The notes beneath the pieces were generated by a model that saw only the letters and a program-made list of their open reading frames with translations, did not search any database and was not told where the DNA came from. This document shows positions 46,201 through 58,200 of a DNA stretch of 64,000 bases, piece by piece. The first letter of the stretch is position 1, and each line of letters opens with the position of its first letter. This DNA is from Clytia hemisphaerica (taxonomy: Eukaryota > Cnidaria > Hydrozoa > Leptothecata > Clytiidae): assembly GCA_902728285.1 (NCBI GenBank), contig CACVBU010000971.1, forward strand, positions 823,614 to 887,613, written 5' to 3'. Both the position numbers and the translations under genes were made by a program.

Positions 46201-49200
46201 ATAATGCCTTGAAACTAACCTACTTAGATTTTGTCAATTTTGGTGTTGGTGTCATCATTTGGGCCTTTTTTGGTGCCGGAATCTGGACACGTTTATTTCG
46301 TTTCTTTTATTCTTTGTCTGATTCGTCTCAAAACCTGACGGAGGGGGGGGGTACTTTGACATAACGTGTCATTGGTATGTGCGAGCCATAAGGGTACTAA
46401 GATCTTAAAGGGTATCTGAAGTCTTTTAAAACTAATCATAAGATTTTCTCTAAAAAGGTGGTTCAAAAATTTCTTTTGGTCAAAGACTCGATGAAGTAAT
46501 ATAAATGTTACATGAATATTCCTAGTGACTAACTCTTAGTTATCACCATCAAATAGCTTTTCGAAAGCAGCCGGCGAGGCGACCTTTTTTTCCGATGTGT
46601 TCTGAGAGCATATTTCAGCTAGAAATTTTGATCTGTTCTGATCAGAACTTCGAAAATTAATCAGCTAGAAATAATGTTAAGTGTTCTGATGAGACAGGGG
46701 TATAATCAAATTCATCTAACGTGTTCTTGTTGCCTAGTAACCCTAGAAATTTTCAGAACACATCTTTCGTGGAAAAAAACAAATATCTTTCAAGTTTATC
46801 TTGGCAAACTGTTTTTCCTAAATTTCCTAATTTCCTAAATCAAACCATAAAGCAGTGATAACTTTAGGGAGACAAATAGTGTGATAAAGGTTTCCAAGAA
46901 ATCAGAACACATCATTTGTATAAAAAATTGAAAGGTCTCCTAGAAGATTAGAACACATATTTCTAAAAAATCTCTCCGCCGGCTGCTTCTGGCTTTTGAT
47001 TATTTGAGTTCTGTTTTGACAAAAAAAAGCACTTTGTGATAGAAATAGAACGAACAAAATTTAGTTTAACATAAAAGCTAAACAAAATTGACGCAAGAGA
47101 TTGTATCGGCTATTTGTGCGCATTGTATGTTTGATAAAAAAATTCCCTTACGCAGACCACTGCGATGAAGTATGATTTATAAATAGCAACACTTCTCTCG
47201 TCGTCTCTCCTCCCTCACCAACACTTCATTGCAGCGGTCGGTTTGAAAAATCTCAAATAGGAAAAGACAATGACAACAGACCCTCTACGGCAATGAATTT
47301 TGAAATATAGCCGTATATACTGGATTTGTGTACAGACAACTATTAGGCCGGAAATTGCGAATATAAGCATAATGACACCATCTTGCAATTACCTCCTGGT
47401 CGGCTCACCATGCAAAACAGTAGGAGACAGATGATGATGGATGGAGGCCATCATTGCTGGTCTTATAACGTTAAGAGTCGGAATAACAGCTCCCCCCACA
47501 AAGCTGTGCACATGCTTTTACCAAGTTATGACTTTCAAGTCTTTTAGCACATACATACCTCAAACCGATGAATTTTATCACCAAATTCACGCTGAATAGA
47601 AGGCGATATATATTCATACACTGTAGTACCAACAATGAAAAAATAGAGCCAGCTAAAGATACAATGTATTCGCTTATATTTTAGGTGTGGTTGAGTCAGG
47701 TTGGTTTTTTCCATGCGCAGAAGTTTGTTTTGAGTTATAAGGAAGGACAGAGACACGTGGGATTTCTCTTTGACAGTGAAAATAGTTTAACAGAGGTAGG
47801 TGGTTATTGATAACCTTTTCAGGAGAGTTTTGCGTTTGACTTGATTGTTTTAAAGTGGTCTTTTATAAACTTGACGTATCTTCTAGTATTTTATTTCTTT
47901 AGTTTTCTCAATTTATCAAATCAAAACCTGATTCTCGGAAACTCCCCACAAGCGTTTAGAGGATTTCCCATGTATAATTTACAATATCGGCCAAAAGTAA
48001 ATGGAATTTTACCCATTCTACTGGTTTTTCCTGTTGCCCTCCCCTTCCCCCCTCCCTACAATGTTGCTGAGTCAGTTTGAGGTCTCTCATGCTCAAATTC
48101 AACATTGTAGAGGGGGGAGAAGGGGGGAGAGTGGCAATTGTCATAGAAAATTAAAGAAATTCCATTACTTTTGGCCATTATTGTCTGTGGGTGATAGCAG
48201 GTCTGGACTTAGGAGTTTTTGAAGAATTTATGTCCCACATAAGGGACCATATGTCTTTGTTTTCTTTTTCCTCTTTGTCTCTAAGTACAACAAAACATTG
48301 ATATATATCAGTATATTATAGAAGCTAATGTATACAACAACAATAAACAAGGCCTGTAAACAACTGGTAAAGCAGGGCGTTAAATTCAGTGGACCAGGTC
48401 TTCACGGTAATTTGACGTTAAAATTTGGCAGACAGTATTTTTCCTTACTTTTTATAAGAAGTAACTAATGGGTGTAGTATATTCAGAGCTTTAGGGTTGA
48501 TCTACTTAATATTTTTTTACAAGAGAAGAACAAACTGAAAGGAAATCACCGCCCAGGGCTTGAAATAGGGGTTAGCATCCCGGCGGAATACCTTAGCTCC
48601 TTGCCGGAAAGGTTATAAGTTTTATAAGGAAAAGAAGAGCGGAAGAAAAGAAAAGAAAATTGTGTTGCGCACGCCCGTGCTTTACCATGTTGAAGTTTTT
48701 TGATAAGTAACGCAACGATAATATGATTATGCATATAATATATATTATACCCTTCTATTTCTAGAAAAAAACAATAGCACAATAATATTATAAAGTAAAC
48801 AAAATGAAAATACCACTACAAGTATCTATGGTCCTCCGTTATCTACATCAAGAGAAGGGTGAGACGTTGGGAAGATTATTAGAACTTTATCCGCAATACA
48901 AGCGCACGACTATTTATCGCCACATGAAAAAGAAGATTAATGATACTGGGACAGAGGCAAAGAAGCGCACCGGAAGGCCCCCCAAAGTTTCAGACAGAGA
49001 TCGCAGACGTGTACTTGGCGCAATGCGCAAATTGAAGGAGGAGTACGGTACTTTCAATGCTACACACATACGTCGCCGAGCTGAACTCTACCACCTTGCC
49101 CCGAGGACCGTGCGCAGAATTTTAAACGACGCAGGCTACAAATATAAACAATGCCGAAGGAAAGGAATTTTATTAAAGGGAGACCTCAAGAAAAGACTCA

Positions 49201-55200: not shown

Positions 55201-58200
55201 TCCTCGTAACTGGTGTGAAATTCTCTAAAATGGCATTTAACCTTTGGGTACTTCAAGTCAAATCTATTTTTAATGTCCACAAAGCGCGTTCTATTTTCCA
55301 ATTTAATGGCTAAATGATAGTGCGGGTTGCCATCTCGGTGGGATTCCTTGCACGCAGACCAATGTTTGACAGCGCTCTCTCCACCAAACGCCTCAACCCA
55401 GATCTTTGCAAAATGCTCACGGGTGGGAACAATCTCAATGTCAGCCTGACTGTAAGTGATTAAATAAGTCTGCCTCCTCTGCTGGGACGATTCCCCTTCA
55501 CTGCTCCTCCTTTTATCTTTTTTGTTTTTGCTAGCCATTTTTACTTTTATTAGCACTGTAAATATAAGAAAGTTTATTTAGTACCTATATTGAGATTTTT
55601 AAAGCCTTGTACATATAGTATATTTACGAGTTTATTTTCATTTAAGTAGTATTTTACCATAGTATTGTTGTTTTTGTTTTTGTCTCTTATGTTTTTTTGT
55701 CCTGGACCTGCTGAAACACCCACTTTCGAGTCCTTTTGCACGATTTGTTTTGAAAAAAATTCGAATTTTTCCCGCTGCACGAAAACGAGGCTGCGACCTC
55801 ATTTCCCGTTTTTCAAAATGTAAACAAACAAAATGGTAGCCAGAATAGTGTACGGAAGCATGCTACTGCAGTCTCAGAGCGTTTTTTTGCATTTTTTTGG
55901 AAATTTTGGTCCTTTTCTCAAGAATTTCTTTCGATTTGAAAAAACAGACAATATCGGCCAAAAGTAAATGGAATTTTACCCATTCTACTGGTTTTTCCTG
56001 TTGCCCTCCCCTTCCCCCCTCCCTACAATGTTGCTGAGTCAGTTTGAGGTCTCTCATGCTCAAATTCAACATTGTAGAGGGGGGAGAAGGGGGGAGAGTG
56101 GCAATTGTCATAGAAAATTAAAGAAATTCCATTACTTTTGGCCATTATTGTAGCTTATAACTTTATCACTTAGTTTCTTCGCACATTTCTTTTTTAATTT
56201 TTAGTTTGTGTTCAATTCGAGTCCTAAGTGTCTACAAAAGCGACAACTTAACATTAAGGAGATAATCAAAAGAACTCAGCAATTGAGTTATCTCCCTAGT
56301 ACTAAAAAGCAAGGATGTGCGTATCGAGGAAAATGCAAAGAAACAGTTTTCAAACGGACTTCAATGTTTCCAAAGAATACGAAATGTCTATACGATAGCA
56401 CAATATTGAGATTGGCGAATAGTAAATATTATTCTCGCATAAAGATGGTACACCACAAAGACCAGAAACGACTACTTCCAAAGAAATGGAGAAATTTACT
56501 AGAGGTTAGTCATTTTTTATAAGAACAAATTATGTAAAAAAATAAGGCTTCGATGGCCAAAATACTAAGAACACATTGGAGGGCCTTGGAGACCATTCGA
56601 GGCTTTATTGACTCTGAAACACCCAAATTCTTAGAAAATCACAAAAAAATACTCACAAAACAAAATAAGAACATTTTTAGGCTTAGAACTCCAATAAGTG
56701 AAGAACATCTAAATGCTTCAAAATTTTTGGATTTAGGATTATGTAGCTGTTTATAGAGCTCAGTTAATCTGGAAAAAATTTCACCTCTTTTCTATCAAAA
56801 TTGTCTGTTTGCCAAGAGTCTCTAAAATTTGCCTTCAAAAATTATATCGGCGGACGAGCTTTTGGTTATTTTCTCCCTTTTTTCTTCCCTGGTGAGGAAC
56901 TTAGTTTTTCTTTTATTCGATTAAAGGTGACGTCTTCGGATTTGTGGATAGAGATAACTGACCTGGTAGAACATGCTCACGAGTTACTAGTCTATGACAA
57001 CTACCCCGACAAGATATCCTTGGACCGTGGGCAGTGTGCACATTTCGAATTGATGGTGTACCTGCAAAGTAATACAGGTATTTATTTCTTGGAGTATCTT
57101 ACAATTTAATTTGATTTGACATCTAGAAATTTTATGAATTTAAAGTGAAAATCAACTTCTTCAATAATTATGCTATAATTTAACTCGGGTTAAGGAGTTT
57201 CTTAAAATCAGTGTTTTTCATTTGTAAAATGAAAAAAAAATCATTTTTCACTCTCCGTCGCTACACTTTACAACAAAATGTCTCTATTTTTATAATACAA
57301 AAGGAACGCATAAACTGTAAGACGGAGAGTTTGTTTATATTCTCTTAGAATAAGAGCCAATCAGAAGATCGAAATAAGGTAAAATAAAGAAATTCTGAAC
57401 AGTGTTTTGACTGTGTGGTGTGATTTTACCATTTTGTTATGAAACGAATCAAATCATCGGACGACTAATTATTCTGATTATGCGAGTTTACGTTATCCCT
57501 CGCCGCAAAATTTGAACTGTCGTTGTTGTCAGTTGATAAGCTACCGAGTTTACTTTCCCTAAGCTAGTTATTCAGTCACAACTTACCATCAGATTTATAC
57601 TAGTAACTGAATCAAACTAGCTTAGATTTCTAGGCTACCATTCACATACAAAAATCATTTAATTAAGGTAAAAACTTATACGCTCTACCATATGTTTTTC
57701 ATTACTTCAGACCAGGCTGGTTGGATAATCGAAGATATATCTTTACATTTCCAAAGTACTTCATCCAAAGACATAAACATACAAAGTGAAAAAATCATCG
57801 ACTACATTGATAACTCTGTTAATTTCAAGGTAAGCTTATTAGTATTACCAAACTTTTATCGCGCAAGTGTTTATGATGATATGAGCCCTCCCCATTGGGG
57901 AATGGGTCCTACTCCTTATTACGAAGTCGGAACGCTTAGCGCTGTCCAGACACTGTTGGTTCTGTGCACGCGAGACACAGATACCATGATGCATAGTGAT
58001 GACACTCGAACTATACGGGAGAGCATATTGTCGAAAGCTCTAGCTTAAAAGTGGTTTCATATGCTAATATCGAAATGAGAATTCCAGTCTTGAACCTATT
58101 GTAGTTGTCCTTATTCTAATGTAGACTGAACCCACGAGAAGGCACACAGAGTGACACAATAAACAGAACACAATTTCTTGGTTCTACAAAAATGAAACTT

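Follow-up and report, generated by a model that had tools for sequence, protein, structure and literature searches.

How does a transposon come to hold a viral-type replication protein beside its transposase, and is such a pairing more than an accident of one locus? Cut-and-paste transposons gain copies only indirectly. In this study we focus on an insert in the window, a stretch of 64,000 nucleotides from Clytia hemisphaerica, in which a first, sequence-only reading had described a Tc1/IS630-type DDE transposase together with a CRESS-like Rep. According to excerpts of a 2023 review (PMC10175614), the spread of single-stranded DNA replicons in animal chromosomes is unsettled, Rep being thought responsible without confirmation. 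Here, dozens of related elements, mostly with both genes and often head to tail, suggest a transposon that is copied by rolling circle and inserted as strings.

Organisation of the insert

The insert had been placed at 47982..56150, and these coordinates are exact, with TA on either side. Its layout is TA-(P-core)2-P-TA, in which three 202-bp hairpin ends (P) bound two tandem units of ~3.98 kb, as had been claimed. The left TA target duplication lies at 47980..47981 (ttTA followed by CAATATCGG) and the right one at 56151..56152; the insert starts with CAAT at 47982 and finishes with ATTG at 56150. P1 (47982..48183) forms the left end of the whole insert and P3 (55949..56150) the right end, while the internal copy P2 (51974..52174) is bordered by CAGA and TCTG, not by TA. 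The three copies start at 47982, 51974 and 55949, spaced by 3992 and 3975. P1 has matches at no fewer than 40 places in the genome, and no empty counterpart of the window insertion site was found in the assembly.

Within each unit the two genes converge. The transposase is on the forward strand (48804..49877 in unit 1, 52779..53852 in unit 2) and Rep on the reverse strand (50198..51563 and 54173..55538), the C-terminal extent of the unit 1 Rep being deduced from comparison with unit 2, where the gene spans ORFs 54477-55556 and 54173-54553. Between them stands a second hairpin, H (H1, 50017..50105; H2, 53992..54080). H1 is a candidate Rep origin and carries ACGGTGTCCG four times, in both directions. 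The H hairpin, as well as the folding of P into a near-perfect hairpin, had escaped the earlier description.

Transposase and Rep

Both transposase frames are open and encode identical proteins of 357 residues. Residues D155, D255 and E290 are invariant in 33/33 aligned sequences and 34 residues separate the last two, so the DD34E assignment made earlier for an intact enzyme in each unit holds. The protein matches Pfam DDE_3 with 40.4 bits (cut-off 28.6), and the family profile matches Sleeping Beauty (5cr4) with an E value of 1.6e-17; at the N-terminus, HTH_Tnp_Tc3_2 (24.0 bits) and HTH_32 (24.2 bits) are each below cut-off.

The window Rep contains the YLITYSQ, HYH and YxxK motifs as well as Walker A and B, as first described, and matches Pfam Gemini_AL1 with 29.0 bits (cut-off 24). 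H75, Y117, K120 and K318 are invariant in 56/56 sequences, and H73 is kept in at least 90%. Each of the two copies is nevertheless frame-broken, which the sequence-only reading did not mention: there is one frame change per copy, in the C-terminal third, at places that differ between the units. Relatives with longer open frames exist.

When Rep was re-aligned to Foldseek's top 1000 PDB chains, a set from which other families may be missing, its nuclease half proved to be a geminivirus-like HUH domain matching geminivirus and redondovirus Reps, and its helicase half was best matched by parvovirus Rep/NS1 and papillomavirus E1. Rep is thus not simply CRESS-like. By fold match, Rep joins a geminivirus-like HUH nuclease with a parvovirus/papillomavirus-type helicase, a combination that bears on the exchange of those helicases.

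Pairing across the genome

A convergent Rep lies within 2.5 kb of 73 out of 107 transposase loci, spread over 41 contigs of the 417-Mb genome, against a chance expectation of 0.18; same-strand pairs are absent among the 107 loci. Moreover, the pair, its convergent order and the P ends recur in subfamilies that are 31-50% identical, in agreement with the claim that the two genes travel together. The pairing is general, not peculiar to the window.

The first reading had itself raised the alternative that most transposase copies lack Rep, or the reverse, the pair then being a one-off nested insertion, here taken as that of a single-stranded DNA virus fragment into a transposon. Excerpts of Liu et al. 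2011 (PMC3198968) do report viral Rep pieces inside transposons of other genomes. Only a minority of the transposase loci (34/107) lack a detected Rep. Against the nested insertion stands a layout common to ten subfamilies here and, judged only by shared contig sizes, to other assemblies; the 73 convergent pairs refute this explanation, to which we assign next to no chance.

Besides these 34 transposase loci, 29 Rep loci have no detected partner, the matches reaching at least 900 bp in 13 and 15 cases, respectively. Of the few unpaired loci examined, three (the left part of C625, C881 and C839) are versions of the element that lack Rep. At C850 and C748 a transposase is present that the first search overlooked; C748, at first a Rep-only candidate, was rejected as such since its transposase is diverged. 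No transposase was found in the 2.6 kb read around the C193 Rep. At C49, a transposase locus, the stretches read contain no Rep and no clear P; a scripted search for P picked up nothing but a hairpin at a distance of 2.2 kb, which looks unrelated and has neither TA nor CAG/CTG borders. At C261, an apparent Rep-only locus, part of the sequence is N.

Insertion at TA sites

Two paralogous empty sites reveal insertion with TA duplication, and C-TA-G is preferred (18/25 TA sites). TA is found at both ends in 7/10 of the array insertions read, and likewise at the Rep-less C839; exceptions are AA at C61, TG at C224 and TA/TG at C854. Solo copies of P with TA duplication occur at unrelated sites, and among scripted candidates TA stood at both ends in 10/20 and 9/12 of those fetched. 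An empty site for the solo P of L044 was not found. An identity of solo P with coral CMITEs was rejected, since excerpts of PMC2872659 link the latter to piggyBac.

That the element enters TA sites through its P ends is observed, in line with the earlier proposal of insertion by DDE chemistry; as to the agent, the enzyme family and the linkage point to the DD34E transposase.

Tandem arrays and the two hairpins

One plan is kept in arrays that have diverged to ~31-50% amino acid identity: P at the ends, and H between a transposase and a Rep gene whose 3' ends face each other. Single units are likewise P-core-P. Arrays of 2-4 units inside one TA pair were found at five unlinked sites (the window, C907, C248, C303 and C254). 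In C254, a 35-bp deletion is present in all three internal P copies and missing from the outer ones; of its four units, three are ~100% alike and the remaining one departs from them by 19-21 bases. The simplest reading of this deletion and of the near-identical units is that the array grew after insertion; at least one array was thus most simply enlarged later by recombination.

This growth is what a conventional DDE transposon ending in long hairpins would display, with arrays arising solely by unequal crossing-over between P copies and Rep serving elsewhere or only aiding amplification. Solo P copies agree with it too, as they reveal that P is able to insert by itself, or to stay behind after recombination, without Rep or H. 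Such a transposon accounts poorly for a Rep on which purifying selection acts and which stays with the transposase throughout deep subfamilies, for an H that is conserved in position and retained in Rep-less units, and for the multi-unit arrays that lie inside a single TA pair at each of the five unlinked loci; we regard it as unlikely.

H is an AT-looped hairpin composed of repeated 9-10-mers in 8/10 subfamilies; the motif is present just twice per unit in C907 and three times in C303. No nick site was recognised in H, nor a clear nonanucleotide by eye. Tandem units in which Rep is deleted retain both P and H. Could the Rep origin instead be P, with Rep sharing the hairpins with the transposase in rolling-hairpin style? 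In those subfamilies for which it was folded, P gives a strong hairpin; like the hairpins of parvoviruses it stands at both ends, and the Rep helicase resembles that of parvoviruses. The repeated motif characteristic of H is, however, missing from P, and solo P copies have spread without H, which makes a P origin quite improbable.

Viral traits

The fold of Rep, the ambisense layout with a hairpin in each intergenic region, and relatives on contigs of 3.6-4.8 kb, a size expected from unit circles or from collapsed arrays, are also what one would expect of an endogenised virus of the CRESS/parvovirus kind that uses the DDE transposase as integrase, its capsid being lost or supplied by another virus. 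Among the matches listed, 29/119 Rep relatives and 27/118 transposase relatives are on such contigs, and the two sets have eight contig sizes in common. These contigs were rejected as proof of circles, because a tandem array can be reduced to a single unit when short reads are assembled.

Against a viral origin, no capsid-sized extra ORF was seen in the ORF lists of the units read, a check that spliced or short genes would escape. Apart from the two genes and antisense frames, no ORF of the window units reaches 100 residues, and three ORFs of 62-82 residues lie outside the genes; L022 units have no extra ORF of at least 120 residues, and L026 has one of 132. Furthermore, IMG/VR yielded no relatives with a single Rep, the Rep alignment or a single transposase, and only two matches of 26-27% with the transposase alignment (L037 and L038, among 160 stretches). 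INPHARED and PLSDB gave no match to the Rep relative P0001, nor INPHARED to the transposase; in prokaryote genomes the Rep alignment produced 10 pattern hits and 0 relatives. We consider the viral explanation quite unlikely.

A probable replicon-transposon hybrid

We think it probable that these elements form a family of replicon-transposon hybrids, in which Rep copies circles and the transposase integrates units one at a time or as concatemers. The unit would be a ~4-kb circle carrying hairpin P, the transposase, hairpin H and, in the opposite direction, Rep. Rep would nick at H through its HUH nuclease and, with its SF3 helicase, drive rolling-circle replication, giving circles and head-to-tail concatemers. 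The DD34E transposase would cut two P copies at their outer borders and insert the intervening (P-core)n-P, n being at least 1, preferably at C-TA-G with TA duplicated. The P ends, the TA duplication and n from 1 to 4 are observed; amplification by Rep replication, as the first reading also proposed, is predicted from sequence. Since P-core-P slightly exceeds one unit, a circle could be re-released by replication or by P-P recombination. Arrays may also change afterwards by recombination, as C254 most simply indicates, and Rep-deleted units, which keep P and H, may persist because they are served in trans.

The odds are about even that this is a new class of eukaryotic DNA transposon, combining DDE integration with an HUH-Rep rolling-circle replicon of its own, with two cis-acting hairpins devoted one to the transposase (P) and the other to Rep (H), block insertion of concatemers, and many co-evolving, partly reassorting subfamilies. 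We count against our preferred explanation that c10709 and the C907/C303 clade are placed differently in the two trees, and that the matrices over eight outside contig pairs correlate only weakly (r 0.379, 476/10000). The later growth of C254, the target duplications other than TA, the loci without a partner, the lack of a recognised nick site in H and the few H motifs of C907 and C303 also speak against it. An element with an integrase and a Rep, if real, would account for tandem transposon arrays and be a concrete step between transposons and single-stranded DNA viruses; its replicative release from a 1.05-unit insert would be directly testable.

Relation to known elements

With Tc1/mariner (IS630-Tc1-mariner) and Sleeping Beauty the element has in common the DD34E domain, TA duplication and inverted terminal repeats. 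Tc1 ends read CAGT, whereas those here read CAAT, and each end is a complete ~200-bp hairpin. The transposase is not the sole gene, and a second hairpin, tandem arrays inside one TA pair and the CTAG preference are further differences.

HUH motifs and an SF3 helicase are shared with the Reps of CRESS-DNA viruses (geminivirus, redondovirus), from which the absence of a capsid-sized ORF in the lists, the helicase type and the lack of a recognised nonanucleotide set the element apart. It differs from parvoviruses (AAV Rep, B19 NS1) by its HUH domain, head-to-tail direct units, the transposase and, again, no capsid-sized ORF seen; as far as excerpts describe them, the same applies to the acorn worm parvovirus-like repeats (Liu et al. 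2011, PMC3198968).

The first reading knew of no described family with this pair, a statement that requires a caveat. By description, the nearest precedent is a degraded, multicopy geminivirus-like transposon of the truffle Tuber melanosporum (Liu et al. 2011, PMC3198968), for which excerpts give one interrupted Rep, two transposase ORFs that are broken and whose family is unstated, 37-bp TIRs and no obvious TSD. Rep and transposase ORFs within terminal inverted repeats, in many copies in a eukaryote, are common to both; the present elements stand apart by their numerous pairs with long open frames, the two kinds of hairpin (P and H), TA duplication, tandem arrays and many subfamilies. Beyond that paper the pair was not found among the literature matches listed, which is weak evidence because subscription papers, most preprints and Repbase lay outside the scope. 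Teratorn, a 180-kb piggyBac-herpesvirus fusion in excerpts of PMC10175614, likewise joins a DDE transposon to a virus-type replication system, whereas the present unit has 4 kb with Rep and a Tc1-like enzyme. Outside Clytia, the matches listed include a Rep relative in Acropora millepora, at 40%.

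The insert in the window

The insert spans 8,169 bp (47982-56150), exactly the boundaries proposed by the sequence-only reading, and is laid out as TA-(P-core)2-P-TA, where P is a terminal hairpin repeat of ~202 bp and the core is the stretch between P copies. Each core carries a Tc1-like DD34E transposase of 357 aa on the + strand, tail to tail with a Rep (HUH nuclease plus SF3 helicase protein) on the - strand. The same reading had described two-gene units. The two transposases are intact and identical to each other; each Rep copy is broken once in its C-terminal third, at different places in the two. 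No empty copy of the flanks was found in the assembly.

Pairing of the two genes in the genome

Searches of the genome (417 Mb, 951 contigs, designated by C-numbers) placed transposase matches at no fewer than 121 and Rep matches at no fewer than 122 positions, these being lower bounds from scoring part of the candidates. Merging same-strand pieces less than 900 bp apart gave 107 transposase and 102 Rep loci; in either set, 73 loci lie no more than 2.5 kb from a convergent partner. Chance would give 0.18 transposase loci with a Rep neighbour, and the linkage proposed for the window extends well beyond it. A divergent Rep neighbour is additionally present at 26 of the 73 paired transposase loci, as expected from tandem arrays, whose period is 3.97-4.40 kb in those read; three further transposase loci have a divergent Rep only, and at none of the 107 does a neighbouring Rep lie on the same strand. 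Convergent pairs occur on 41 contigs, 17 of them with two or more; C224, C564 and C827 are among the few multi-pair contigs with pairs far apart.

Pairing is the rule, without being universal. Transposase copies lacking a detected convergent Rep are not the majority (34 loci), as they would be had the pair in the window been exceptional; 29 Rep loci likewise lack a detected partner, and 13 and 15 of these loci, respectively, measure at least 900 bp. A few were inspected (C850, C748, C839, C625, C881, C193 and C49). C839, a P-core-P unit without Rep and with a distance of 3,256 bp between its P copies, is flanked by TA on both sides. In C625 the left part is made up of Rep-less units of 2,723 bp that retain P and a second hairpin, H; C881 consists of 2.3-2.4-kb Rep-less units whose P-type and H-type hairpins were recognised by eye, the P script giving no limits. 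The Rep loci C850 and C748 were rejected as cases without transposase: the former holds a piece overlooked by the first search, the latter a diverged copy. No transposase was found in the 2.6 kb read around the C193 Rep, and neither Rep nor a clear P in the stretches read around the C49 transposase. The 3.75-kb Rep units of C261:1558500-1566500 have a truncated H, another insertion and a part that reads N, and do not make a clean Rep-only element. At C522 (343914-348036), two P copies ~3.9 kb apart surround a Rep scored as unpaired; a transposase may have escaped detection there, in which case this would be another P-core-P unit.

Ends and target sites

P, an inverted repeat 164-213 bp long (ACAAT...ATTGT), has C-rich arms, and most copies contain an inner stem resembling CAATGTTG/CAACATTG. 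The script located P at array ends and junctions throughout the arrays read, save one expected P in C854 and the left P of C224 and of C303, the latter two being visible on reading. Internal junctions border P with AG or GG on one side and CT on the other, often CAG and CTG, and array ends with the target dinucleotide. This is TA on both sides in seven of the ten insertions read (window, C248, C597, C254, C907, C303 and C924, the last having ends ~50 kb apart that were read with the middle unread), TG in C224, TA and TG on the two sides of C854, and, by eye, AA in C61. The C61 array lies in a 113-bp host satellite, other copies of which offer a natural uncut site for comparison, with AA in place of TA. 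The insertion at C597 consists of one P-core-P unit; its joined flanks match uninterrupted paralogues on C412 and C487, which read GAGCTAGCTT with one TA, and these empty sites show insertion with TA duplication. Moreover, C-TA-G is found at 18 of 25 TA sites (seven arrays, C839 and 17 solo P), against 0.8 expected at 36% GC; C61, C224, C854, two solos sharing the flanks of a third, and solos without a script call were excluded.

The window-subfamily P matches at least 40 places, from which 20 solo candidates were fetched, chosen for having no listed pair alongside. Of these, 10 have TA-P-TA by script, three of the 10 having the same flanks, and two others (L039, L040) are P copies adjoining a core. 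For the C254 subfamily (50 matches), 12 fetched stretches gave TA-P-TA in nine by script and two more by eye (L076, L081), while the C907 P has 10 matches, mostly adjoining cores. Such solos imply that P alone can insert like a MITE, or that it remains when two P copies have recombined with each other. The C254 array has, at one of its ends (C254 3397930-3398336), two P copies with nothing between them, which looks like insertion of P, or recombination, next to P.

The second hairpin

H, an inverted repeat between the convergent genes, occurs in all 10 subfamilies examined and is kept in Rep-less units. In eight it has an AT-rich loop flanked by a 9-10-base motif that is present in both orientations, at 4-11 copies per unit; the motif's sequence varies between subfamilies, that of C254 being TGCGTAACC (~10 copies). 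In these eight, none of 200 mononucleotide shuffles reached the observed count, the margin being narrow (4 vs 3) for C224, C248 and the window; with two and three copies, C907 and C303 are not distinguishable from shuffles. Since the motif was picked from H, what is informative is that it is missing elsewhere: it is almost confined to H, C924 having one extra copy per unit elsewhere. H looks as a Rep origin with iterons would, and is a candidate origin; no nick site was recognised in it.

Co-evolution and selection

Transposase and Rep identity matrices correlate over 11 arrays (r 0.947, 0 of 10000 permutations), and also without C597 and C248 (r 0.877, p 0.0023), which are almost identical. 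With eight outside pairs, joined solely by identical size of the carrying contigs, and C597 left out, r is 0.813 over 18 pairs, and for the outside pairs alone 0.379 (476 of 10000 permutations as high). Four clades are common to both trees (C907/C303; C248/window/c4365; c4335/c33805; c4156/c4339; c-numbers are outside contigs). The outside contig c10709 and the C907/C303 clade are placed differently, which may reflect module exchange. Between the window and C248, pN and pS are 0.08 and 0.79 for the transposase, and 0.21 and 0.77 for Rep; four deeper comparisons per gene, with synonymous sites saturated, give pN/pS of 0.17-0.62. These ratios indicate that both genes are under purifying selection.

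Array formation and relation to known elements

Units within an array are 99.98-100% identical in C248, 99.6% in C61, 99.3% in C907 and 99.1% in the window, and in the window/C61 set the units are grouped by array at five sites, with one further site contradicting this. Insertion of a concatemer from one circle would fit these data, and so would growth in place. In C254, three internal P copies have a common 35-bp deletion, absent from the outer copies, and of the four units three are ~100% alike and the other departs from them by 19-21 bases; thus this array most simply grew in place. We think that both processes are at work.

For this bounded insertion at TA, ending in P and holding H between convergent genes under selection, the transposase would be the agent of insertion, and Rep would start replication at H. 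Circles and concatemers would be formed, integrated elements could be released by replication, and Rep-less units might be served in trans. Geminiviruses are released from partial dimers in infection assays, and integrated P-core-P resembles these dimers.

The literature search yielded, among the matches listed, no family of this kind. Closest among published elements is one from a truffle (Liu et al. 2011, PMC3198968), which is degraded, without obvious TSD and of no stated transposase family. There is a good chance that the present family deserves its own class. Two IMG/VR viral contigs (L037, L038) hold distant DDE relatives, at 26-27% over transposase residues 173-293.

Other features of the window

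At 22237-27154, two identical repeats of 110 bp enclose a 1269-aa ORF, which from its motifs we take to be Gypsy-like and of a retrotransposon, perhaps a recent LTR element. Two - strand ORFs (28219-28983 and 41075-42253) resemble, in their motifs, tyrosinase/hemocyanin-type copper proteins, and the N-terminus of the second looks von Willebrand A-like. A 27-bp minisatellite forms two blocks in opposite orientation (2654-3084 and 6717-7089), and an inverted repeat at 35614-36225 has 283-nt arms, 95% complementary, around a 46-nt spacer.
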